Assembly: GCA_035578155.1 (NCBI GenBank)
Contig: JAPWDM010000001.1
Coordinates: 13,866,725 to 13,930,724 of the forward strand
DNA: 64,000 bases
DNA from: Brachynemurus nebulosus
Taxonomy: Eukaryota > Arthropoda > Insecta > Neuroptera > Myrmeleontidae
Direction of reading: 5' to 3'
Shown here: positions 14,109 to 56,030 of the stretch, one piece after another
Numbering within the stretch: the stretch's first letter is position 1
How the letters are laid out: every line of letters starts with the position of its first letter
The notes under the pieces: model-generated
What the model was told of the DNA's origin: nothing
Databases searched by the model: none
What the model saw: the letters and a program-made list of their open reading frames with translations, nothing else
Program-made: the position numbers and the translations under genes

Positions 14109-14945
14109 AATAAAAGCTTTTTTAAAAAACCGACTTCAAAAATTAAAAGATAATTAATAGCACGAATTTTGAAGTCAGGCGGGATGTCGTATAAAAAATT
14201 GCGATCGGATGTTCTTGCAAAAATTCATAAATTCTTCAAGATCTATATTTTTTATACTGCGCGCCCCGCCTGACTTCAAAATTCGTGCTATTAATTATTT
14301 TTTAATTTTTGAAGTCGGTTTTTTAAAAAAGCTTTTATTTCATACCTTTTAATGACAATGCTTATTAGCCCTTATAGTGATAATTGATTAAAAGAAGAAG
14401 TATTCCTTTCATACGTTTAGCTGGAATAGTTTTACAAATTTCATTGTCCAAAAATCATAATTTTGGGCACTCACTGACTTCTTTGAAATTTGGAACAAAA
14501 ATAGTGTTCAAAGAAATAATTGCATACTAGGAAAATAAAAATCATTGAAAATCAACCAATTTTTCAAGTCATTAAAAAAGAATTGTTTAATTTAGATATT
14601 ATCAGAAAATTATTTTTAGAATAATTAGATCCACCTAAATTTAAAAATATGTTACTATAGTTTTTAAAGTAAATAATTTTGCATACACAAATTTTAAAAT
14701 TACCATAATTATTCATATTATTGAAGATGATTAAAAAATTACTCAACCAATGTTAATAAAATGTTTATCCGACCACCTGGAGAGCTTTATCTACTAACCA
14801 AAAACAGAATGGCAGGAATTGTCCCAGAAATGTGGGAGAAATCGGTGTACATACATAAAAAAGCAAAACAAAAAAACATACGGGTTGAATTGAGAACCTC
14901 CTCGTTTTTGAAGTTGACTAAAAATAATAATTATTATAAGAGTAG
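14109..14945 (+). repeat. Interspersed repeat, copy 1, with 231-bp terminal palindrome
   Basis: Positions 14109-14339 form a nearly perfect palindrome (arms about 85 bp containing AAAACCGACTTCAAAAATTA; positions pair with sum 28448). It continues into about 600 bp that recurs, inverted, at 18772-19715, including the landmarks CCACCTGGAGAGCTTTATCT and GAACCTCCTCGTTTTTGAAG. The far end (TTTTTGAAGTTGACTAAA) resembles a worn form of the palindrome motif TTTTTGAAGTCGGTTTT. I know this motif as frequent in insect repeats but cannot give its class. The short frames inside are not convincing genes. Confidence 0.8.
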
Positions 14946-19041: not shown

Positions 19042-19442
19042 AAAAAAAAAATAATTTAAAAATCACAAAGTGACTGAAAAAATTATCAAACTGAATCGGC
19101 TGGGAATCGAAACCAGGATCTCCCCGTAATTAGCCAGGTGTCTTGCCACTAGACCAACGATCCTCTGTTGGACATATTTCAATTTCAAATATTATCGAGT
19201 TACCGGGACATCCTGGGTTGGATTCCCAGCCGATCCAGTTTAATAATTTTTTCAATCACTTTGTGATTTTTATTTTAATTGGGATTTTGGTCATACTAAC
19301 CAAAAAAATCGAGTGCTTAAAGTTTCAATTTAGCTGAATGATAAGTGAACATATGAATACTGCGTATGTTTAAATGCGGACAAAAGTTCGTCATACGTAG
19401 TAATGTTTCACAAGCACTCGATAATATTTGAAATTGAAATAT
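19042..19442. mobile_element. Twin/foldback tRNA-derived SINE with 9-bp TSD
   Basis: Flanked by ATTCTAAAA at 19033-19041 and 19443-19451. Two SINE pieces face each other. The left, on the minus strand, has a tRNA-like head (A-box region TGGTCTAGTGGCAAGACACC, B box with one extra T). The right, on the plus strand, has the end of a head (GGATTCCCAGCCGATCCAG), the tail region ATTTTTTCAATCACTTTGTG, and the 3' body ending CGATAATATTTGAAATT. The shared parts make an inverted repeat around 19050-19110 and 19210-19270. The body is the same as at 53853-54197. Confidence 0.75.
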
Positions 19443-19801: not shown

Positions 19802-19849
19802 AGTAGATAGGCTATGACAGAGCGAGCACACCGGTTGTCTAAACAGTTT

Positions 19850-19902
19850 GGGTACATCCTGATGCAAGATGTACCCAGTACATCCTGACGCAAGATGTAC
19901 CC
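19850..19902 (+). repeat. Paired 26-bp subterminal hairpins
   Basis: Two tandem units, each with arms GTACATC and GATGTAC around a 9-base loop (CTGATGCAA or CTGACGCAA). They sit 48 bp from the element end and are mirrored at 29584-29636. They could be sites for terminus recognition, but that role is inferred. Confidence 0.75.
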
Positions 19903-20155
19903 AAATTTTTGAGACACACTGTACCTCATGTATGAATTGATCTCTGACCCGGCACGTACCAAGTACATGTATCAAAATTTGTTGTTGACATTTGACCCCA
20001 CACGCGCTCATACTGTTGGCCTTGAAACTCCAAAGACCTGAGTCATCACCAGCAACCAAATTAATTTATGTTAACCCATTATGCATCATCACTATTTTCG
20101 TCACAATTTGGTTTTGTGTTAACCCATTACCCGCCATAGTTTTTGAATGCAAACC

Positions 20156-20710
20156 TAACGCATGCGCAGATTGAATTTAAGTACATGACGCATGCGCAGA
20201 CTGAATTTTAGGTTACAATTTGATAGATGGGGTACACTACCGCGTCAAAAATGTGGGGTTACCCTAACTCGGGGGTGGCCCCAAACTTTTGACGCCGTAC
20301 TGTACTTAAATTTTTGGTACACTGCCGTGTCAAAAGTGCGGGCCCCCCTGACCAAAAAGGTATCCTATCACTTTTTGAAGCGTACTGTACGTGCAAACCT
20401 TGGCCCCAACACGCGCTTGCCTTAATTGCGTCATCTTAAACGAACTATCACGTCAAAAAATGTGGGGAATACCCTAACCCAGGAGTGGCCCCAAACTTTT
20501 GACGCCGTACTGTACTTAAATTTTTGGTACACTGCCGTGTCAAAAGTGCGGGCCCCCCTGACCAAAAAGGTGTCCGATCACTTGTTGAAGCGCACTGTAC
20601 GTGCAAACCTTAACCCCAACACGCGCTTACCTTAATTGCGTCATTTTAAACGAAAGGTACATTACCAAGTCAAAAATGTGGGGAATACCCTAACCCAAGG
20701 GGTGGCCGCT
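20156..20710 (+). repeat. Subterminal tandem repeats (29 bp and about 210 bp)
   Basis: Two copies of ACGCATGCGCAGA(T/C)TGAATTT lie at 20156-20215. About 2.3 copies of a roughly 210-bp unit follow, starting from GTCAAAAATGTGGGG near 20243, 20452 and 20669. Within each unit, related blocks (GTACACTACCGCGTCAAAA, TTTTGACGCCGTACTGTAC, GTACACTGCCGTGTCAAAA) occur in both directions. The 69-87-codon frames here follow the repeat unit and are unlikely to be genes. GC content is well above the surroundings. Confidence 0.8.
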
Positions 20711-21952
20711 AAATTTTGCGGGGCACTGTACCAAGCGCTAGATTTTAAAACCAGACTCCGGGGTCCAGATTTCTGACCGCTACTGTACTGCCGGAAATCG
20801 AGTGTTAACTGTACCTTATGGGGATTTTTGGTATATTTAACCTTGGAAAATTCCAGGAATTTTTATCAGTTTTAAAACAAACAAACAACTAATAATTAAA
20901 TGTTTATTTTAGCTGAATTATGATCATATGACTCATATATGGAGTTTTTTTGGTATAAGAAAGATGACGTCATGGAATATTAATGAGTTAAAAAATTGTT
21001 TAGTAAAAAATATCACCCATTGTAGGCCTCAAGCAAGAAATTATTTTTATCAGTTTTAATACTTTAACATTTAACCTACAGTGACCAATTTTTTAGTTAA
21101 CTAACAAAAATTCTTGAAATTTTAACAAGTTACAAAAAATATTACTTCTTATGGTGCACAACACTTTTGAATTTGACTGTAGCACAAAACTGTTTCTATA
21201 TCAAACGAAAATTATCTGAAATAATTCAGTATGTACATATGTATAGACTCTATATATTAAAAATATTTTATGTATACACTCTGTATATTGAGAATAAGAA
21301 AGAAAATTTGTATATAATTTTAATTTTTATGAATACTAGTAAACGAATTGTATAGCCATTTATGAATAAGTATTAAATCTAATTATAAAATAATTTATAA
21401 ATATTGCAAAAAATTTGTTTAATCAGCAAAATCAATGTATATCATTTTAATACTGATACATATTTATATTAGGGTATAATAGTATTGTATTTAACATTTT
21501 TAAACAGAATAAAAGTTCAATTTTTGGTTTTAAATTACTATAAACACGTCGCTTAATATAAAAATGATAACAGCATTGAGTTTTACTAAATTTTTAAGTC
21601 TGTAAAATCAAAATTTTTATAGCTAGAACATTTTGAATTTGATACTTTATCAATCATTAACATATATACAATATCATGTATATATAACTGGTGTATATTT
21701 AGTATTTTTAATAAATATTTTAGTATACAGGGTGTATCATGAAATATGCTTTTCAATTAGAATAATACATTTCATAAGATTTTTGTTAATACTCTTATTG
21801 GTTAACGAAAGAAACTTTTTGCTGTAAAAAAAATAGGGGAATTCAGGGTAATAATTAAATAAAACGCACATATTTTTCTTTTTTTTAAAATTTTATTTAT
21901 AGAATATGTATACAAAAAATTAAATTGCTTAAATGTATATATTACTAAAAAT
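20711..21952. other. Arm interior without supported gene
   Basis: AT-rich; short frames only. A TATACAGGGTGTATCATGAAA string near 21723 resembles ends of small TA-flanked transposons, but no partner was found. The mirror copy is 27534-28775. Confidence 0.45.
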
Positions 21953-22419
21953 CTATTTATTTTCCATATAAAATTTTTTTAAAAGAATACAGTTTTCTAA
22001 TGAGCAAATTTTATCTGAATGGATCATACAGCGTCTTGAATAATATTCATCTCGCAGATTGGAAATCTTCGGTACATCAAATATTTCTTCCAAATTCAAA
22101 ATCCACGGCTGGTTTTCGGTACCATCAAACAAATTTGAAATCCATTTCTTCTTTTCACCGCCCTTGAAACTTCTTTAATATAGGTTTCAATATGGAATGA
22201 AGTTTTTTGTACGGAATAAATCCATATGACCAAGGTATCCCATGCCAATTTCGGCAAAGCCAACGTGCAGCAACCCGTTCATATTTCTTCGGCAACTCGT
22301 TGAAATCAAACGGTGCGTCGAATATAAGATGTAATATTTCATCTGAATTTTCCGCAACGATACCAACTTCTTTAAAATAAAAAAGCTCCTTGATAGCCTT
22401 GTATGTCAAGAAACGCCAT
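21953..22419 (-). pseudogene. Frame-broken arm gene, left copy (HGIPW / GEKKKW protein)
   Basis: Mirror image of the right-arm copy at 27067-27533. On the minus strand an ATG at 22417-22419 opens a short frame starting MAFLDIQGYQ. A T run then moves the protein-like sequence into a second frame (about 22155-22405, with FDAPFDF, WLCRNWHGIPW and GFIPYKK). Near 22155-22165 it changes again into a third frame (GGEKKKW, then PWILNLEE) that ends with a stop at 21953. Both changes are +1. The motif order (D-x-Q-G, KE, HGIPW, KGxEKKxW) reminds me of proteins of unknown role found repeatedly in insect genomes and mobile elements, possibly with a nuclease-like fold. That is recollection only. A 3' frame this well preserved argues for recent decay or an unusual decoding route. 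Confidence 0.65.
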
Positions 22420-22581
22420 TTTTTATCGCCGCTGTAGAACTGAATTTACTCACACAATCCACAACTTTATATAAAATAATTAAAATTGGTGAGGATAGTT
22501 AATTTGTGGGATGTATCCGAAAATGGATACTACTAATAGCTATTGCTAGTTGACCATCAAATTACAAACTGTTAATAATAT

Positions 22582-22938
22582 TTAGCAGATTGGTGCGTAC
22601 CATGTTCTTTTCACTTTAAGACCTAGTGATTTAAGGAATGCTAAATTTTCGGGTGAAATGTGTTGTCGCTTAAAAGTTTTACGTTTAATGATCTTAGGTT
22701 TCGAAAGTCCTTTGCTAGGTTGTTTAGCGTTGGACTGCTCTGAATTGTAAATTATCATGGTTCGAAATGCAATTGTTTTACCACGAAATTGTTTTTTCAG
22801 CGAAAGTGATGTTAACTCTTTGACAACCACCGGTAAATTGACAATATTTTGTGTAAGTTTAACTAATTTATACGCTTTAACCATGATAATGTGTGTAAGC
22901 CCTTTAACCATGATAAGGTGTATGAGCTCTTTAACCAT
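22582..22938 (-). CDS. 118-aa arm protein, left copy, unknown function
   Basis: ATG at 22936-22938, stop at 22582; identical in length to the right-arm copy. The start lies directly against the 21-bp minisatellite, the likely promoter side. The first 27 residues come from three tandem 27-bp units, each beginning with an in-frame ATG (MVKELIHLI, MVKGLTHII, MVKAYKLVK), so the true start could be any of the three. The rest is basic (RGKTIAFRTM, KPKIIKRKTFKRQH) and ends with SPENLAFLKSLGLKVKRTWY. The basic character could suit nucleic-acid binding or a structural role, but I recognise no domain. It points outward, upstream of the frame-broken gene and in the same direction. Confidence 0.55.
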   Translation of the reverse strand: MVKELIHLIMVKGLTHIIMVKAYKLVKLTQNIVNLPVVVKELTSLSLKKQFRGKTIAFRTMIIYNSEQSNAKQPSKGLSKPKIIKRKTFKRQHISPENLAFLKSLGLKVKRTWYAPIC

Positions 22939-22949
22939 GATAAGGTGTA

Positions 22950-23470
22950 TGAGTCACTCCGAGGGCAAAATAAGTCACTCCGGGGGCAAACTGAGTCACT
23001 CCGGGAGCAAAATGAGTCACTCCGGGAGTAAAATGAGTCATTCCGGGAGCAAAATGAGTCACTCCGGGAGCAAAATGAGTCACTCCGGGAACAAAATTAG
23101 ACACTCCGGGAGCAAGATGAGTAACTCCGGGAGCCAAATGAGTCACTCCGGGGGCAAAATGAGTCACTCCGGGAACAAAATGAGTCACTCCGGGAGCGAA
23201 ATGAGTCACTCCGGGAGTATGTGAGTAACTCCGGGAGCCAAATGAGTCACTCCGGGAGCAAAAGGAGTCACTCCGGGAGCAAGATGAGTAACTCCGGGAG
23301 CCAAATGAGTCACTCCGGGGGCAAAATGAGTCACTCCGGGAACAAAATGAATCACTCCGGGAGAAAAATGAGTTACTCCGGGAGCCCATTGAGTCACTCC
23401 GGGAGCCAAATGAGTCACTCCGGGAGCGAAATGAGTCACTCCGGGAGCAAAATGAGTCACCCGTTGGAGT
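22950..23470. repeat. 21-bp minisatellite with TGAGTCA sites, left
   Basis: About 24-25 units of consensus ACTCCGGGAGCAAAATGAGTC. By hand count about 17 junctions give an exact TGAGTCA, the AP-1/TRE consensus; others differ by one base. Units are 21 bp (two helical turns), with at least one 20-bp unit. Because 21 is a multiple of three, several frames stay open (SGSKMSH, PGVTHFA), producing apparent proteins that are repeat artefacts. The array separates the outward 118-codon ORF from the inward gene at 23551. Confidence 0.92.
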
Positions 23471-23486
23471 CAAATGAGTAGCCCGG

Positions 23487-23513
23487 TGAAGCAAATGAGC
23501 TAAGTATATATAC
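23487..23513 (+). promoter_or_regulatory. TATA-box promoter for the central rightward gene
   Basis: AAGTATATATACG lies 38-48 bp before the ATG at 23551, a distance that fits a TATA-driven start. The preceding GCAAATGAGCTAAGTATATA is shared, inverted, with the right side (25661-25682), which drives the opposite gene. This is where homology between the arms ends. Confidence 0.6.
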
Positions 23514-23550
23514 GAAATTGTCTGAACCGGAATCAATGGAGTGAGATAAA

Positions 23551-24056
23551 ATGGATGTTTCAATTGGTGAATTTTTCGAACGTGAACCAATGCTACTGAA
23601 CGAACTGACTTTGGAAACATTTCTTCAAATCTACAAGTGGATCAGTTTGAATGTGCTGAAAAGTTATGGTGCGAAAATCATACAACGCGCCTGGATTTGG
23701 TTACCATCCTATTGTCGAGCCATGTTTCAAGAATGTGAACCATCTATTCACCTATTTTGAAAATTCGCTGTGAAATGTGCAAGAATGGCGTGAAAATGGA
23801 GGAAAACTTTCAACCGCCCGTTGGTGAACCATTGACATTTGCAACACGGATTTCACACGTTGAAGACATATTTCTGACTCATCCTTATTTGTATACAAAA
23901 GTCAGAAATTTCGATATGTTATTATACTTAACAAAACAACTATTGAAATATGATACTTGGGTGCAGCATCTGTATGCATATATGATACCCGAATATGCGC
24001 AACGAATTTGTCAAGTATGGGATCAGTTACCTGAAAACATGAAACAATTACGTTAG
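23551..24056 (+). pseudogene. Central rightward gene, probably one frameshifted ORF
   Basis: An ATG at 23551 opens 69 codons (IGEFFEREPMLLNELTLE, then AKIIQRAWIWLPSYC) and stops at 23758-23760. A second frame, open from about 23739 to the stop at 24054-24056, continues in the same style with a CEMCKNGVKM motif, then FATRISHVEDIF, and LYAYMIPEYAQRICQVW. It has no good ATG of its own at its beginning. The simplest reading is one protein of about 165 residues broken by a -1 change near 23740-23757. A short intron, or two real proteins, cannot be excluded. No family recognised. It starts just after the TATA box and converges on the zinc-finger gene. Confidence 0.5.
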
Positions 24057-24610
24057 GGTGTTATTGAATATATAAACAAATCATACAATTTTTAATATTT
24101 ATTTATTGTAAAAAATATTTCATATACATTTATTGTAAAAAATATTACATATACACTTACTGTGAAAATATTTTATATTCATACTTATATTTTAAAAATA
24201 AAGAACAATAATTATTTACATATAGGGTAAAAGCCCCCTTTTTGGAACGGTATCTAATACTGGAACAGTTTTGACATTTACATATTTATTTCTTTAATTA
24301 AGTAAGGAAACTTTAAATACGAGGTGAATTTAAATTGAAGAACAATCATTCTATTAATAATAATTTTTGTTATCAGACGTTTCTTTCAGAAATAACTTCA
24401 TTAATATGTAAATGTTCATAATTAGATACCGTTCCACAAACGGGGCTTTTACCCTATGTGTTATTTATTTGAAAAAAAAAAAAACCTTTTTATCTTACAG
24501 GGTTAAATAATATAAAAATAAAATATACACTTTAATGAGGGATAACTGCTGCTGCTTCTTATACGGTGGTGTTCTTCAAAATTCAGTAAATTCTTAATGC
24601 GGATAATCAA
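24057..24610. other. Intergenic space between convergent central genes
   Basis: AT-rich with repeats of TATTTATTGTAAAAAATATT (24095-24180), an AATAAA near 24197 that could end the rightward transcript, and one MITE at 24225-24454. No coding frame. Confidence 0.6.
24225..24454. mobile_element. TA-flanked MITE inserted in the element centre
   Basis: Ends GGGTAAAAGCCCC and complement of GGGGCTTTTACCC, flanked by TA at 24223-24224 and 24455-24456. Inner arms share GGAACGGTATCTA. The interior (CAGTTTTGACATTTA, CACCTCG-type stretch) matches the element at 48670-49298 in part, so both belong to one family. The short palindrome has no coding capacity. Confidence 0.82.
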
Positions 24611-25591
24611 TTAATCATCATCATCATCATCATAATCGCTAGCATCTTCTTTATCAGTTTCATCCAGATAATCACCTAGTGGTTCAATAATATCAGCCTT
24701 TTGAAGTTCGCGAAGTATAGAGAATATTTCTCGACCAACAGTAGTTTCTTTTAAAGCATTTAACTCTTTGATTAAATCTTCTCGATCGTAAACGTTAAAC
24801 AACAACATATTTTTATTTTCCTCTAAACTTCGAATAATATTGAGTATTTTTTCACCAGTCTCTGAAGTCTCGTATAAACGTTGTAATTCATCTATTAAAG
24901 TATTAGGATTATGCCAGTATTTTATTTTTTTCGATTGTATGTTAACATTTCTAGACTCTCTCAAGTTGTCTTGCTTAAAATGCTTAGCTAAGGCCCCGTT
25001 TTCGACATTTCCATTTGAAGCTATATGACGTTTTAAGCTTATTGGTTTAACCTGATTGACAATTTTCGCTTCATTTTCCGAGTCAGCGTTTCGAACCTCT
25101 TTTAACATTATAATATCTAAAGCAGTTCCTAGAAGTTTAGTTAGTTGTGAAGAGGAGGTTGTTTCATTGCAATTGTTATTAATTGCTGTTAAGTGATTTA
25201 CTTGCTTACTTTCATTAGACCAACTATCTTTCTCGTTTTCAGATTGACGACGGTTTTCTCCTCTTTTCAAATAGTTAAATTTGGTTTGAATGGCTTCAGT
25301 TGCAGCATCTATCCTTTTTTGGTCAAACGAATTCAAGATTGCTTCAGAGTAATCAATATCATGCTGTAGTTGAGATGTATTTTCATCATCATTATCATCA
25401 AATCTAGATATAGAGATATCATCAGGTGTTTTATTATTAGCATCATATGGTATGAATTTGCTTGATGAGTTATCATTATTTCCAATCGTACCATCATTAA
25501 TATTGCTTAACGAATTATGTTGAACATTTAAGTGTCTAGAAAGATTAGACTTTCGCGTAAATGCTTTACCACAAAAATCACAATTATACAT
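24611..25591 (-). CDS. 326-aa C2H2 zinc-finger protein with acidic tail
   Basis: This is the longest intact frame in the window. The ATG at 25589-25591 begins MYNCDFCGKAFTRKSNLSRH. The finger uses C4, C7, H20 and H25 (C-x2-C-x12-H-x4-H) and starts at the very N-terminus. Residues 28-165 are Asn/Ser/Asp-rich and probably disordered; basic patches occur around 185-225. Two related segments at about 232-262 (ELQRLYETSETGEKI) and 273-302 (ELNALKETTVGREI) look like a duplicated helical motif. The protein ends in an Asp run (319-326) encoded by a GAT/GAC microsatellite. One finger plus a helical repeat suggests a DNA-binding regulator, perhaps of the element itself; this is inferred. A TATA box lies about 70 bp upstream, next to the right minisatellite. 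Confidence 0.8.
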   Translation of the reverse strand: MYNCDFCGKAFTRKSNLSRHLNVQHNSLSNINDGTIGNNDNSSSKFIPYDANNKTPDDISISRFDDNDDENTSQLQHDIDYSEAILNSFDQKRIDAATEAIQTKFNYLKRGENRRQSENEKDSWSNESKQVNHLTAINNNCNETTSSSQLTKLLGTALDIIMLKEVRNADSENEAKIVNQVKPISLKRHIASNGNVENGALAKHFKQDNLRESRNVNIQSKKIKYWHNPNTLIDELQRLYETSETGEKILNIIRSLEENKNMLLFNVYDREDLIKELNALKETTVGREIFSILRELQKADIIEPLGDYLDETDKEDASDYDDDDDD

Positions 25592-25659
25592 CGTTCAGCG
25601 GGAGGTCTGAAGCGTTCGCTAGTAAATGAATAACTGTTCAATGATTTATTGCTTCTCTA

Positions 25660-25682
25660 CTTATATATACTTAGCTCATTTG
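25660..25682 (-). promoter_or_regulatory. TATA-box promoter for the zinc-finger gene
   Basis: On the minus strand GAGCTAAGTATATATAAG occurs about 70 bp before the ATG at 25591. It is the inverted counterpart of the promoter at 23487-23513, so the two central genes start from duplicated promoters. Confidence 0.6.
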
Positions 25683-25704
25683 CTTCACCGAGCGACTCAT
25701 TTGA

Positions 25705-26537
25705 CTCCAACGAGTGACTCACATGCTCCCGGAGTGACTCATTTTGTTCCCGGAGTGACCCATTGGGCTCCCGGAGTGACTCAATGGGCTCCCGGAGTAA
25801 CTCATTTTTCTCCCGGAGTGACTCATTTTGCTCCCGGAGTGACTCATTTTGCTCCCTGAGTGACTCATTTTGCTCCCGGAGTGACTCTTTTGCTCCCGGA
25901 GTGACTCATTTTGCTCCCGAAGTGACTCATTTTGCTCCCGGAGTGACACATTTTGCTCCCGGAGTGACACATTTTGCTCCCGGAGTGACTCATTTTGCTC
26001 CCGGAGTTACTCATTTTGCTCCCGGAGTGACTCTTTTGCTCCCGGAGTGACTCATTTTGCTCCCGAAGTGACTCATTTTGCTCCCGGAGTGACACATTTT
26101 GCTCCCGGAGTGACACATTTTGCTCCCGGAGTGACTCATTTTGCTCCCGGAGTTACTCATTTCGCTCCCGGAGTGACTAATTTTGCTCCCGGAGTGACTC
26201 ATTTTGCTCCCGGAGTGACTCATTTTGCTCCCGGAGTGACTCTTTTGCTCCCGGAGTGACTCATTTTGCTCCCGGAGTGACTCATTTTGCTCCCGAAGTG
26301 ACTCATTTTGCTCCCGGAGTGACTCATTTTGCTCCCGGAGTGACTCATTTTGCTCCCGGAGTGATTCATTTTGCTCCCGGAGTGACTCATTGGGCTCCCG
26401 GAGTGACTCATTTTGCTCCCGGAGTGACTCATTTTACTCACGGGGTGACTCATTTTACTCCCGGAGTGACTCATTTTGCTCCCGGAGTGACTCAGTTTGC
26501 CCCCGGAGTGACTTATTTTGCCCTCGGAGTGACTCAT
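25705..26537. repeat. 21-bp minisatellite with TGACTCA sites, right
   Basis: About 39 units of GACTCATTTTGCTCCCGGAGT, the inverse of the left array. By hand count about 26 exact TGACTCA sites. A 146-bp block (25883-26028) of six 21-bp units and one 20-bp unit recurs right after itself from 26029, showing higher-order duplication. Variant units (TGACACA, TTACTCA, GACTCTTTT) mark the block. The 20-bp units shift the frame, arguing against a coding role. Confidence 0.92.
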
Positions 26538-26547
26538 ACACCTTATC

Positions 26548-26904
26548 ATGGTTAAAGAGCTCATACACCTTATCATGGTTAAAGGGCTTACACACATTAT
26601 CATGGTTAAAGCGTATAAATTAGTTAAACTTACACAAAATATTGTCAATTTACCGGTGGTTGTCAAAGAGTTAACATCACTTTCGCTGAAAAAACAATTT
26701 CGTGGTAAAACAATTGCATTTCGAACCATGATAATTTACAATTCAGAGCAGTCCAACGCTAAACAACCTAGCAAAGGACTTTCGAAACCTAAGATCATTA
26801 AACGTAAAACTTTTAAGCGACAACACATTTCACCCGAAAATTTAGCGTTCCTTAAATCACTAGGTCTTAAAGTGAAAAGAACATGGTACGCACCAATCTG
26901 CTAA
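26548..26904 (+). CDS. 118-aa arm protein, right copy, unknown function
   Basis: Mirror of 22582-22938 with the same predicted protein. It starts immediately after the minisatellite and precedes the frame-broken gene by about 160 bp, in the same direction. The three tandem in-frame ATGs (one per 27-bp unit) leave the start uncertain: 118, 109 or 100 residues. Conservation of the frame in both arms shows no decay, unlike its neighbour. No family named; basic middle region and a SPENLAFLKSLGL segment near the end. Confidence 0.55.
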   Translation: MVKELIHLIMVKGLTHIIMVKAYKLVKLTQNIVNLPVVVKELTSLSLKKQFRGKTIAFRTMIIYNSEQSNAKQPSKGLSKPKIIKRKTFKRQHISPENLAFLKSLGLKVKRTWYAPIC

Positions 26905-27066
26905 ATATTATTAACAGTTTGTAATTTGATGGTCAACTAGCAATAGCTATTAGTAGTATCCATTTTCGGATACATCCCACAAATTAACTATCCTCACCAA
27001 TTTTAATTATTTTATATAAAGTTGTGGATTGTGTGAGTAAATTCAGTTCTACAGCGGCGATAAAAA

Positions 27067-27533
27067 ATGGCGTTTCTTGACATACAAGGCTATCAAGGAG
27101 CTTTTTTATTTTAAAGAAGTTGGTATCGTTGCGGAAAATTCAGATGAAATATTACATCTTATATTCGACGCACCGTTTGATTTCAACGAGTTGCCGAAGA
27201 AATATGAACGGGTTGCTGCACGTTGGCTTTGCCGAAATTGGCATGGGATACCTTGGTCATATGGATTTATTCCGTACAAAAAACTTCATTCCATATTGAA
27301 ACCTATATTAAAGAAGTTTCAAGGGCGGTGAAAAGAAGAAATGGATTTCAAATTTGTTTGATGGTACCGAAAACCAGCCGTGGATTTTGAATTTGGAAGA
27401 AATATTTGATGTACCGAAGATTTCCAATCTGCGAGATGAATATTATTCAAGACGCTGTATGATCCATTCAGATAAAATTTGCTCATTAGAAAACTGTATT
27501 CTTTTAAAAAAATTTTATATGGAAAATAAATAG
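27067..27533 (+). pseudogene. Frame-broken arm gene, right copy
   Basis: ATG at 27067 (in AAAAAATGG, a reasonable context), stop of the first frame at 27112-27114 after a six-T run, second frame to the TGA at 27329-27331, and third frame to TAG at 27531-27533. Both +1 changes match those in the left arm, so they predate the last homogenisation of the arms or are part of normal expression. The final coding frame overlaps AATAAA at the stop, and another AATAAA lies near 27588. The motif-bearing segments show strong protein-like composition through all three frames. Function unknown. Confidence 0.65.
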
Positions 27534-28775
27534 ATTTTTAGTAATATATACATTTAAGCAATTTAATTTTTTGTATACATATTCTATAAATAAAATTTTA
27601 AAAAAAAGAAAAATATGTGCGTTTTATTTAATTATTACCCTGAATTCCCCTATTTTTTTTACAGCAAAAAGTTTCTTTCGTTAACCAATAAGAGTATTAA
27701 CAAAAATCTTATGAAATGTATTATTCTAATTGAAAAGCATATTTCATGATACACCCTGTATACTAAAATATTTATTAAAAATACTAAATATACACCAGTT
27801 ATATATACATGATATTGTATATATGTTAATGATTGATAAAGTATCAAATTCAAAATGTTCTAGCTATAAAAATTTTGATTTTACAGACTTAAAAATTTAG
27901 TAAAACTCAATGCTGTTATCATTTTTATATTAAGCGACGTGTTTATAGTAATTTAAAACCAAAAATTGAACTTTTATTCTGTTTAAAAATGTTAAATACA
28001 ATACTATTATACCCTAATATAAATATGTATCAGTATTAAAATGATATACATTGATTTTGCTGATTAAACAAATTTTTTGCAATATTTATAAATTATTTTA
28101 TAATTAGATTTAATACTTATTCATAAATGGCTATACAATTCGTTTACTAGTATTCATAAAAATTAAAATTATATACAAATTTTCTTTCTTATTCTCAATA
28201 TACAGAGTGTATACATAAAATATTTTTAATATATAGAGTCTATACATATGTACATACTGAATTATTTCAGATAATTTTCGTTTGATATAGAAACAGTTTT
28301 GTGCTACAGTCAAATTCAAAAGTGTTGTGCACCATAAGAAGTAATATTTTTTGTAACTTGTTAAAATTTCAAGAATTTTTGTTAGTTAACTAAAAAATTG
28401 GTCACTGTAGGTTAAATGTTAAAGTATTAAAACTGATAAAAATAATTTCTTGCTTGAGGCCTACAATGGGTGATATTTTTTACTAAACAATTTTTTAACT
28501 CATTAATATTCCATGACGTCATCTTTCTTATACCAAAAAAACTCCATATATGAGTCATATGATCATAATTCAGCTAAAATAAACATTTAATTATTAGTTG
28601 TTTGTTTGTTTTAAAACTGATAAAAATTCCTGGAATTTTCCAAGGTTAAATATACCAAAAATCCCCATAAGGTACAGTTAACACTCGATTTCCGGCAGTA
28701 CAGTAGCGGTCAGAAATCTGGACCCCGGAGTCTGGTTTTAAAATCTAGCGCTTGGTACAGTGCCCCGCAAAATTT
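27534..28775. other. Arm interior without supported gene (mirror)
   Basis: Inverse of 20711-21952. The short frames here are duplicated only because the arms are. Confidence 0.45.
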
Positions 28776-29330
28776 AGCGGCCACCCCTTGGGTTAGGGTA
28801 TTCCCCACATTTTTGACTTGGTAATGTACCTTTCGTTTAAAATGACGCAATTAAGGTAAGCGCGTGTTGGGGTTAAGGTTTGCACGTACAGTGCGCTTCA
28901 ACAAGTGATCGGACACCTTTTTGGTCAGGGGGGCCCGCACTTTTGACACGGCAGTGTACCAAAAATTTAAGTACAGTACGGCGTCAAAAGTTTGGGGCCA
29001 CTCCTGGGTTAGGGTATTCCCCACATTTTTTGACGTGATAGTTCGTTTAAGATGACGCAATTAAGGCAAGCGCGTGTTGGGGCCAAGGTTTGCACGTACA
29101 GTACGCTTCAAAAAGTGATAGGATACCTTTTTGGTCAGGGGGGCCCGCACTTTTGACACGGCAGTGTACCAAAAATTTAAGTACAGTACGGCGTCAAAAG
29201 TTTGGGGCCACCCCCGAGTTAGGGTAACCCCATATTTTTGACGCGGTAGTGTACCCCATCTATCAAATTGTAACCTAAAATTCAGTCTGCGCATGCGTCG
29301 TGTACTTAAATTCAATCTGCGCATGCGTTA
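28776..29330 (-). repeat. Subterminal tandem repeats, right arm
   Basis: Mirror of 20156-20710 with the same 29-bp and about 210-bp units; one of the arm differences (CATATTTTTG against CAAAAATGTG on the left) lies here near 29228. Confidence 0.8.
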
Positions 29331-29583
29331 GGTTTGCATTCAAAAACTATGGCGGGTAATGGGTTAACACAAAACCAAATTGTGACGAAAATAGTGATGA
29401 TGCATAATGGGTTAACATAAATTAATTTGGTTGCTGGTGATGACTCAGGTCTTTGGAGTTTCAAGGCCAACAGTATGAGCGCGTGTGGGGTCAAATGTCA
29501 ACAACAAATTTTGATACATGTACTTGGTACGTGCCGGGTCAGAGATCAATTCATACATGAGGTACAGTGTGTCTCAAAAATTT

Positions 29584-29636
29584 GGGTACATCTTGCGTCA
29601 GGATGTACTGGGTACATCTTGCATCAGGATGTACCC
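29584..29636 (-). repeat. Paired subterminal hairpins, right arm
   Basis: Mirror of 19850-19902: two 26-bp units with GTACATC/GATGTAC arms. Confidence 0.75.
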
Positions 29637-29684
29637 AAACTGTTTAGACAACCGGTGTGCTCGCTCTGTCATAGCCTATCTACT

Positions 29685-48669: not shown

Positions 48670-48840
48670 ACGTAAAAGCCCCTACACCGGAACACGATCA
48701 TATATGTCCGAACAGTTTTGACATTTATATATTAATGTTTATTTCTGAAAGAAACCTCTGATAACAAAAATTATTATTAATAGAATGATTACTTTTCAAT
48801 TTAAATTCACCTCGCATTTAATGTTTCCTTACTAAATTAA

Positions 48841-48916
<76 letters not shown>

Positions 48917-53852: not shown

Positions 53853-54197
53853 AATTTCAAATATTATCGAGTACTTGTGAAACATTACTACGTATGACAA
53901 ACTTTTGTTTGCATTTAAACACACGCAGTATTCATATATTAACTTATCGTTCAGCTAAACTGAAACTTTAAGCACTCGATTTCTTTGGTTAGTATGACCA
54001 AAATCCAAATGTAAATTAAATATCACAAAGTGATTGAAAAAATTATCCGGATCGGTCGGGAATCGAACCCAGAACCTCCCGGTAACTAGCCAGGTGTCTT
54101 CGCCATTAGACCAACGATCCCGTGTTCGACAGCCACCCGATCCAGACAATCATTCAACCACCTATGTGTATTGGTACTCTCTCTAATACGAGAAACA
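53853..54197 (-). mobile_element. tRNA-derived SINE (Thr-like head)
   Basis: On the minus strand a tRNA-like head has A-box sequence TGGTCTAATGGCGAAGAC and a perfect B box GGTTCGATTCC. The arm CCTGG-CTAGTTA-CCGGG would place AGT as anticodon. The body continues through TTTTTTCAATCACTTTGTGA and AAGCACTCG-type inverted repeats to CTCGATAATATTTGAAATT. It is a SINE rather than a tRNA gene, since the same head and body recur at 19042. Confidence 0.8.
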
Positions 54198-55334: not shown

Positions 55335-55690
55335 TGAAAAATTATAAAAATTGGATCGGCTGGGACTCGAATCCGGATCTCTTGGTTGCTAGCTAAGCGC
55401 CTTACCAATTAGGCCACCGACCGTTCGTTCGAATGCCACTCCAATTCTGATAATCAATCAAACACATCTTCTCTTTAATGCGAGACGCAGTTACATTTTT
55501 AATTTCAAATGTTGTCGAGTGCCTGTGAAACATTATTGATGTATGACGGACTTTTGTCCGTATTCAGACATACACACCAATATTCATATGTTCACTTGAT
55601 GTCCAGATTTAGCTGATAATTGAACACTCGATTTGTTTTGGTATGTATAACCAATTCATTATGTTAATTAAAATTCACATAGTGTTTGAA
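55335..55690 (-). mobile_element. tRNA-derived SINE (Ala-like head) plus tail fragment
   Basis: The minus-strand head has TGGCCTAATTGGTAAGGCGC (A box) and a B-box relative GATTCGAGTCC, with AGC in the anticodon position. Its 5' end near 55497 abuts a 3' body fragment (55500-55690) in the same orientation, as in the pair at 53853-54325. Confidence 0.72.
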
Positions 55691-55744: not shown

Positions 55745-56030
55745 AATGTAACTGCCTCTCGCATTAAAGAGAGGATGCGTTTGATTGATTATCAGAATTG
55801 GAGTGGCACGAACGGCCGGTGGCCTAATTGGTAAGGCGCTTGGGTAGCCACCAAGAGATCCGGGTTCGAGTCCCAGCCGATCCAGTTTTGATAATTTTTC
55901 AAACGCTATGTGAATTTTAATTAACATAATGAATTGGTCATGCATACCAAAGTAAATAGAGTGTCCAAGTATCAGCTAAAGCTGGACATCAAGTGAACAT
56001 ATGAATATTGGTGATAACTTTTGAAATTAG
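55745..56030 (+). mobile_element. tRNA-derived SINE (Ala-like head), forward
   Basis: Starts GTAACTGCCTCTCGCATTAA; the head has TGGCCTAATTGGTAAGGCGC and a perfect B box GGTTCGAGTCC; the arm CTTGG-GTAGCCA-CCAAG gives AGC. The body ends GGTGATAACTTTTGAAATT. It is inverted relative to the copy at 55335. Confidence 0.8.

Follow-up and report, generated by a model that had tools for sequence, protein, structure and literature searches.

The 64,000-nucleotide stretch of Brachynemurus nebulosus contig JAPWDM010000001.1 analysed here (the window) holds a 9.9-kb element, most of it a giant palindrome, which is a genuine inserted mobile element and a member of a large family in the host genome. We consider it very probably a non-autonomous, self-complementary satellite of a Polinton (Maverick). 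Four relatives of 16.5–18.8 kb in the same genome share its termini, its 6-bp target-site duplication, its right-end sequence and the gene adjoining PolB, and we have little doubt that these longer elements and the palindromes relate to each other as helpers and satellites. In the window copy, each arm carries a gene 1 and the remnant of a gene 2 beside an array of 21-bp repeats, and the centre holds genes A and B, the latter encoding a C2H2-finger protein (Table 1).

What identifies the palindrome as an insertion? The first-pass annotation of this DNA had placed a 9.9-kb giant palindrome at 19802–29684, with AG..CT ends and a 6-bp TAGTAT duplication, and this proved exact to the base. Its estimate of inverted arms of 3.7 and 4.0 kb around a unique centre of about 2.15 kb agrees with the arm alignment, in which the arms reach these lengths once the arrays and the stretch up to TATATATA are included, leaving a centre of 2150 bp at 23512–25661. 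The termini read AGTAGATAGG at 19802 and CCTATCTACT at 29684. The TAGTAT flanks match at 6 bp and mismatch when compared at 4, 5 or 7–11 bp; with the A that begins the element included, the 7-mer TAGTATA is common to both sides. We prefer the 6-bp parse because it alone leaves symmetric ends and because 6 bp are found in 16 of 16 copies. Moreover, when the two flank halves are joined, they align with an unbroken repeat at 14109–14623 on the minus strand, in which CAGTAT occurs once at the point of joining, and this uninterrupted relative of the target repeat inside the window marks the element as an insertion.

The host's own assembly (960 Mb, 138 contigs) was searched with the first 399 bases of the element, and the best 40 of 2505 candidates were scored, so that the number of copies is a lower bound. 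Of the 79 resulting rows, 40 match the end over nearly its full length and 39 are short and internal; 32 of the 40 make up 16 inverted pairs, and the eight single ones stand outside the pair analysis. In all 16 paired copies, that of the window included, the ends are AG..CT and the 6-bp duplication is perfect, two of these duplications (C94, L019) being weak as they are located in TA repeats. Eight pairs are window-type palindromes of 9.6–10.9 kb (window, L017, L018, L020, L022–L025). The other eight are a deleted variant (L027), two members of a second palindrome family (L019, L021), a 5.7-kb element (L026) and the four helpers. The second family shares these arms, in each of which gene 2 is open; it has GGTGGCGGT-type repeats in place of the 21-bp array, and its C2H2 gene is a 288-aa paralogue, for which 135 matches were scored from 2930 candidates, at 97–100% identity. 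The deleted variant (C58:26906850-26915100) is asymmetric, without one array, one gene 1 and centre A; it shows the variant end AGTAGAATAGCTAG at both sides, and its duplication is still perfect.

The helpers encode a PolB of 1163 aa, a 249-aa protein, an rve integrase of 308 aa, a Pox_A32-type ATPase of 230 aa, a PLA2-like protein, a 258-aa protein, a double jelly-roll (DJR) capsid protein of 396–397 aa and, near the right end, a 161-aa protein. All eight genes are present at 98–100% identity in all four helpers; the ATPase crosses a boundary between sequence pieces in three of the four, and the 161-aa gene of the C94 helper is a frame of just 111 aa. Proteins of two helpers (C80 and C1:48M) gave Pfam matches to rve (4e-15), DJR (2e-123), Pox_A32 (3e-10) and PLA2-like (9e-13). 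The PolB assignment rests on the motif YTDTDS and on identities to two frames that score with PF03175 (98% over 686 aa to a frame of 104 bits; 38% over 1173 aa to a frame of 118 bits). PolB evolves under constraint: the ratio of nonsynonymous to synonymous rates (dN/dS) is about 0.1 in three pairs with dS near 0.05 and 0.2–0.5 in three pairs with few changes, and 38 of 40 scored PolB copies (the best 40 of 2216 candidates) are without a stop. The first-pass annotation had proposed a search for full-length relatives with the same ends and polymerase B or integrase; the outcome is positive, with DJR capsid and A32-type ATPase in addition in four of four. Its reading of the window element as non-autonomous and Polinton-like thus gains support from same-ended helpers with PolB, integrase, capsid and ATPase, which would mobilise the palindromes in trans. 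Genome-wide, PF03175 has at least 193 matches (75 of 1288 candidates scored), and some of these frames have YYDTDS rather than YTDTDS, pointing to several Polinton-type lineages coexisting in one genome.

As had been claimed, the window element holds no hallmark replication gene. Pfam scans of the window frames and of all six frames of the centre and right arm returned one C2H2 finger and otherwise no credible match; these six-frame scans of centre and right arm gave no PolB, though such scans also missed PF03175 in known PolB frames, and blastn finds no stretch of the helper PolB gene. The same six-frame scans and the blastn comparison with the helpers gave no rve integrase, DJR capsid or ATPase. 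Judged by its length, the 326-aa frame is coding, as none of 1000 random 2.2-kb sequences reaches 327 codons and the maximum in 60 simulated 64-kb windows is 182; the 118-aa frame of gene 1 is not significant by itself, being equalled in length in 44 of 500 sequences of arm composition. By blastn, the 326-aa C2H2 gene is not found in the four helpers. A proposed search for relatives of the terminus, the arm proteins and the 326-aa protein was fruitful for the terminus, which is matched in the host genome, and brought up none in protein databases (326-aa frame, last 59 residues of gene 1, one gene-2 piece) or viral contigs (four proteins or pieces and the 19-base terminus). PHROGs and PDB gave only finger-region or chance-level matches for the window proteins submitted.

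From where do the arms derive? The outer window arms match both helper ends, and element positions 725–2700 match the helper right end at 92%, through gene 2. Gene 1 (residues 18–59) matches the C-terminal part of the helper 258-aa protein (44% over 50 columns, E 5e-9), whose gene is situated on the far side of the capsid gene from the right end; hence the capsid gene is missing from the arms. Gene 2 and centre A are both frameshifted in the window element. Together, this shows the arms to be the helper's right end minus the capsid gene, copied over the PolB side, and the earlier idea of arms grown to carry duplicated genes is supported, the genes being relatives of the helper 161-aa and 258-aa genes. 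The founder junction lies at the identical base in eight of eight palindromes. There, the left end of centre A reads into the array and a TATA box, and in the four helpers and a further element (C11) into the PolB side, so that an array-plus-TATA cassette substitutes for the PolB side. At up to two mismatches, the palindrome junction occurs at 222 genome places and the PolB-side form at 409, with none for reversed-pattern controls.

The C11 element spans about 11.4 kb by position arithmetic across two loci and contains, between its ends, PolB split in two frames, centre A, C2H2, array, gene 1, gene 2 and the right end. Its duplication is uninformative because TATATATATA is present on both sides. 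It is what one would expect as an intermediate if the region from integrase to capsid was replaced before the right arm overwrote the PolB side, the presumed order of events. Of the 31 C2H2 copies listed on contig C1, 15 show the PolB-side junction at zero mismatches, 10 the palindrome junction and six neither; the notion that all C2H2 copies are palindromes is consequently wrong. We also rejected the drop of identity in the window array as the palindrome-founding breakpoint: L017 and L024 are collinear and near-identical through the array to about 3.8 kb, and this collinearity and the common junction at the TATA box rule out a breakpoint in the array. The pieces of the element recombine, since in the C2H2 tree the window copy is nearest to PolB-side copies and L045 (a locus in which neither junction was found) while its arms are nearest to those of palindrome L024.

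How do the arms stay alike? Left and right arm differ by 0–3 of about 1680 nt in all 10 copies measured, and different copies (26 sequences, arms and helper ends together, 315 pairs) differ by 0–5%, with a mean of 2.6%. Over 3150 nt, the arms of seven copies differ by 0–3 bases, plus two gap columns in two copies. In a tree, the arms of each copy group together, except for L022 and L023, which are near-identical siblings. One-sided doubling is also seen, with eight head-to-head pairs within 6 kb among 100 listed palindrome junctions and two facing C2H2 pairs among 123 listed C2H2 rows. One of these 10 doubled pairs, L053 (C58:45658990-45659232), is a near-perfect palindrome of the centre-A side with arms of 119–120 nt and a 5-nt spacer.

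Panhandle repair occurs in adenovirus-type replication, and the within-copy arm identity fits fold-back copying during strand-displacement replication. The helper integrase would insert the satellite and the helper PolB would replicate it; the displaced single strand could then fold on its self-complementary arms into a panhandle, which would restart replication and copy one arm onto the other, keeping the arms identical and letting them lengthen or be reset. Both this replication route and packaging by the helper are what we infer. A rival account retains the Polinton derivative and has its arms equalised after insertion by host gene conversion. Inverted repeats in chromosomes do convert, whole arms are near-identical, and the identity drop in the window array resembles the end of a conversion tract; against this, the degree of correction is about the same in 10 of 10 copies at 10 sites, and there is a fold-back product whose spacer is 5 nt, both of which replication explains more simply. 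We regard gene conversion as possible but unlikely and favour, with some reserve, arm correction by fold-back replication. A more far-reaching picture, which we rate as speculative and doubtful, is that of a self-complementary satellite virus of an endogenous Polinton, whose strand would fold to a near-duplex, be replicated and packaged by the helper and have one arm rewritten from the other each round; array and C2H2 protein would serve as its own switch, and either genome half could double into a full palindrome.

Might the C2H2 palindrome instead be a second viral segment that aids the helper, as in multi-segment bidna-like viruses? Among the copies listed, 113 of 123 C2H2 genes and 131 of 135 of their 288-aa paralogues are free of stops, and five of 40 scored PolB copies adjoin a listed C2H2 copy, three of the five without a stop. 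However, purifying selection on C2H2, although expected, was not found: among 15 distinct copies, chosen as open frames from loci and thus biased against stops, pN/pS is 1.03 (0.81 by codon variants, binomial p 0.5), as compared to a PolB dN/dS of about 0.1. Against the second family the C2H2 ratio is 0.67–0.69, and between two second-family copies 0.52 on 12 changes; that of gene 1 is about 0.7–1.5 in pairs with at least two synonymous changes. Furthermore, no 161-aa gene-2 frame is listed in the seven other window-type palindromes, and that of the window is frameshifted. Young copies remain open without selection, so that open C2H2 frames are to be expected in them and are no proof of function. 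A second segment is accordingly improbable.

Several observations weigh against a helper-driven, self-correcting satellite. Mobilisation in trans is deduced from shared ends and duplications and was not observed. PF03175 was absent from the Pfam matches of the helper PolB itself, and Pfam named no adenain-type protease in the helper frames that were scanned (C80, C1:48M). PolB-side junctions exceed palindrome junctions, which implies that the palindromes have not overrun the PolB-bearing forms, and the C2H2 gene, with a dN/dS of about 1 among the 15 copies, bears no sign of selection. As for the arms, the copies are young, and arm identity could date from a single event before insertion; L053 is a single locus with its ends unread and possibly an assembly fold-back; and L022 and L023 each retain one arm difference. 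In the window, the arms are collinear across 3416 nt (19802–23217 and 26269–29684) with 20 mismatches, three in 3147 nt outside the 21-bp array, none in the first 92 array nt and 17 in the next 177, beyond 23041. This stop of identity within the array and two differing sites in the inner 51 nt of the arms indicate that correction is incomplete in the window copy.

The comparisons with known systems draw on parts of the papers cited and of PMC2836005, PMC6431247, PMC6035795, PMC8504770 and PMC2871265. With Polintons/Mavericks the satellite shares the 6-bp duplication, AG..CT ends and terminal inverted repeats, its helper has PolB, integrase, ATPase and capsid, and its end motif AGTAGA agrees at five of six positions with the (AGT)2 reported for intact vertebrate elements (PMC8097293). 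In contrast, the window element is without those genes, carries duplicated genes in its arms, and has arms of 3.7–4.0 kb, as opposed to terminal repeats of 46–1447 bp in the Polintons surveyed (PMC8097293). Adintoviruses (13–15 kb) have the helper's set of PolB, integrase, capsid and packaging ATPase, and the parts of PMC8363768 drawn on make no mention of a palindromic satellite; the helper differs in being 16.5–18.8 kb long and integrated, with no protease identified among the frames scanned. Bidnaviruses and Vesanto virus are Polinton-related, PolB-type replicators with terminal inverted repeats (PMC4061559, PMC8363768), and terminal repeats of Vesanto segments may cross-map (PMC8363768), but these are virus segments, whereas here we see integrated, self-complementary copies with helper-derived arms.

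Foldback-type elements invite a different comparison, in which the palindrome would be an unrelated cut-and-paste transposon (Mutator, Galileo or IS3EU-like). Foldback elements, Galileo and Tetris likewise have long arms, internal tandem repeats and non-autonomous forms (PMC3573991, PMC4079207), and IS3EU and GingerRoot also produce 6-bp duplications (PMC10045372). Yet Galileo and Tetris make duplications of 7–10 bp (8–10 bp in Tetris, PMC4079207), belong to the P or Mutator class and have no PolB helper (PMC3573991, PMC4079207), as against 6 bp in 16 of 16 copies and a helper with rve and PolB here; IS3EU ends are TA..TA, and the group definition of TA..TA (or TG..CA) ends (PMC10045372) differs from AG..CT. 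Since termini and right end are those of elements with PolB, rve integrase and DJR capsid, these helpers refute the foldback reading, to which we give very little credence. Lastly, chimeric long reads are known to give giant palindromes, but the differing flanks with a perfect duplication, the window's own empty site and the eight copies of this layout at separate sites leave a mirrored read with practically no probability.

Snap-back or self-complementary defective genomes of linear DNA viruses, in which one end is copied to the other, are palindromic and helper-dependent. Such genomes are familiar from infections, unlike the large endogenous family of palindromes found here, which would be a genome-resident analogue of these satellite and defective-genome systems. 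It is an open question whether Polintons exist in animals as replicating viruses, and via which DNA intermediate. Polinton particles have not been observed, according to the parts of PMC8097293 drawn on. A satellite family with helper ends, a founder junction, an intermediate and equalised arms may represent a natural record of Polinton replication, from which fold-back or panhandle DNA would be expected in the living host, perhaps together with particles. At title and abstract level, a palindromic Polinton satellite was not found in the literature; Repbase and most subscription papers lay outside this scope, and a library consensus may exist.

Table 1. Features of the palindromic element and its surroundings, in window positions.
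Feature	Start	End	Strand	Remarks
Whole element	19802	29684	.	9883 bp
Left target-site duplication	19796	19801	.	TAGTAT
Right target-site duplication	29685	29690	.	TAGTAT
Empty-site relative of flanking host repeat	14109	14623	-	
Outer left arm	19802	20820	+	terminus, inverted GTAC-containing repeats, 210-bp tandem repeats; corresponds to helper terminal inverted repeat (92–94%)
AT-rich left arm segment	20821	22000	+	21% GC; from helper's right end
Gene 2 remnant (left arm)	21953	22445	-	frameshifted copy of helper 161-aa gene; mirror coordinates by arithmetic
Gene 1 (left arm)	22582	22938	-	118 aa
21-bp tandem array (left)	22949	23460	+	24 units, most around TGAGTCA-type motif
Left arm inner end	23461	23513	+	with TATATATA; founder junction between 23513 and 23514
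Centre gene A	23514	24090	+	5'-truncated, frameshifted copy of helper 249-aa gene following PolB
Nested miniature inverted-repeat transposable element	24226	24458	.	in centre
Centre gene B	24611	25591	-	326-aa protein, N-terminal C2H2 finger
Right arm inner end	25662	25712	-	with TATATATA
21-bp tandem array (right)	25675	26537	-	41 units
Gene 1 (right arm)	26548	26904	+	118 aa
Gene 2 remnant (right arm)	27041	27533	+	frameshifted copy of helper 161-aa gene; pieces in three frames
AT-rich right arm segment	27486	28665	-	mirror of 20821–22000
Outer right arm	28666	29684	-	mirror of 19802–20820; mirror coordinates by arithmetic

Each array is flanked by an arm gene directed outward on one side and a centre gene directed inward on the other, and the arm repeat terminates at TATATATA. 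Arrays with TATA boxes could serve these arm and centre genes as twin promoters, a role that we put forward tentatively. Of the window's 51 TGASTCA sites, which we take to be the motif known as AP-1, 43 fall within the two arrays. A search for TATA plus CAGT spacing was unspecific (34 sites vs 8.6 expected, many in TA repeats).

The miniature inverted-repeat transposable element nested in the centre has GGGTAAAAGCCCC inverted ends and a relative at 48721–48858 in the window. It was found neither in the eight other copies compared nor in the corresponding half of the C11 intermediate (L048), and so arrived after the window copy or in its recent lineage. Elsewhere in the window, tRNA-like sequences are located at 19092–19163 (Ile), 54048–54120 (Thr), 55352–55423 (Ala) and 55813–55884 (Ala); the first two are embedded in related repeats and are possibly tRNA-derived short interspersed elements. 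Finally, an open stretch of 192 codons at 2082–2660, with a weak zinc-finger match (E 0.03), is presumably a fragment of a transposon-derived protein, judging by resemblance.

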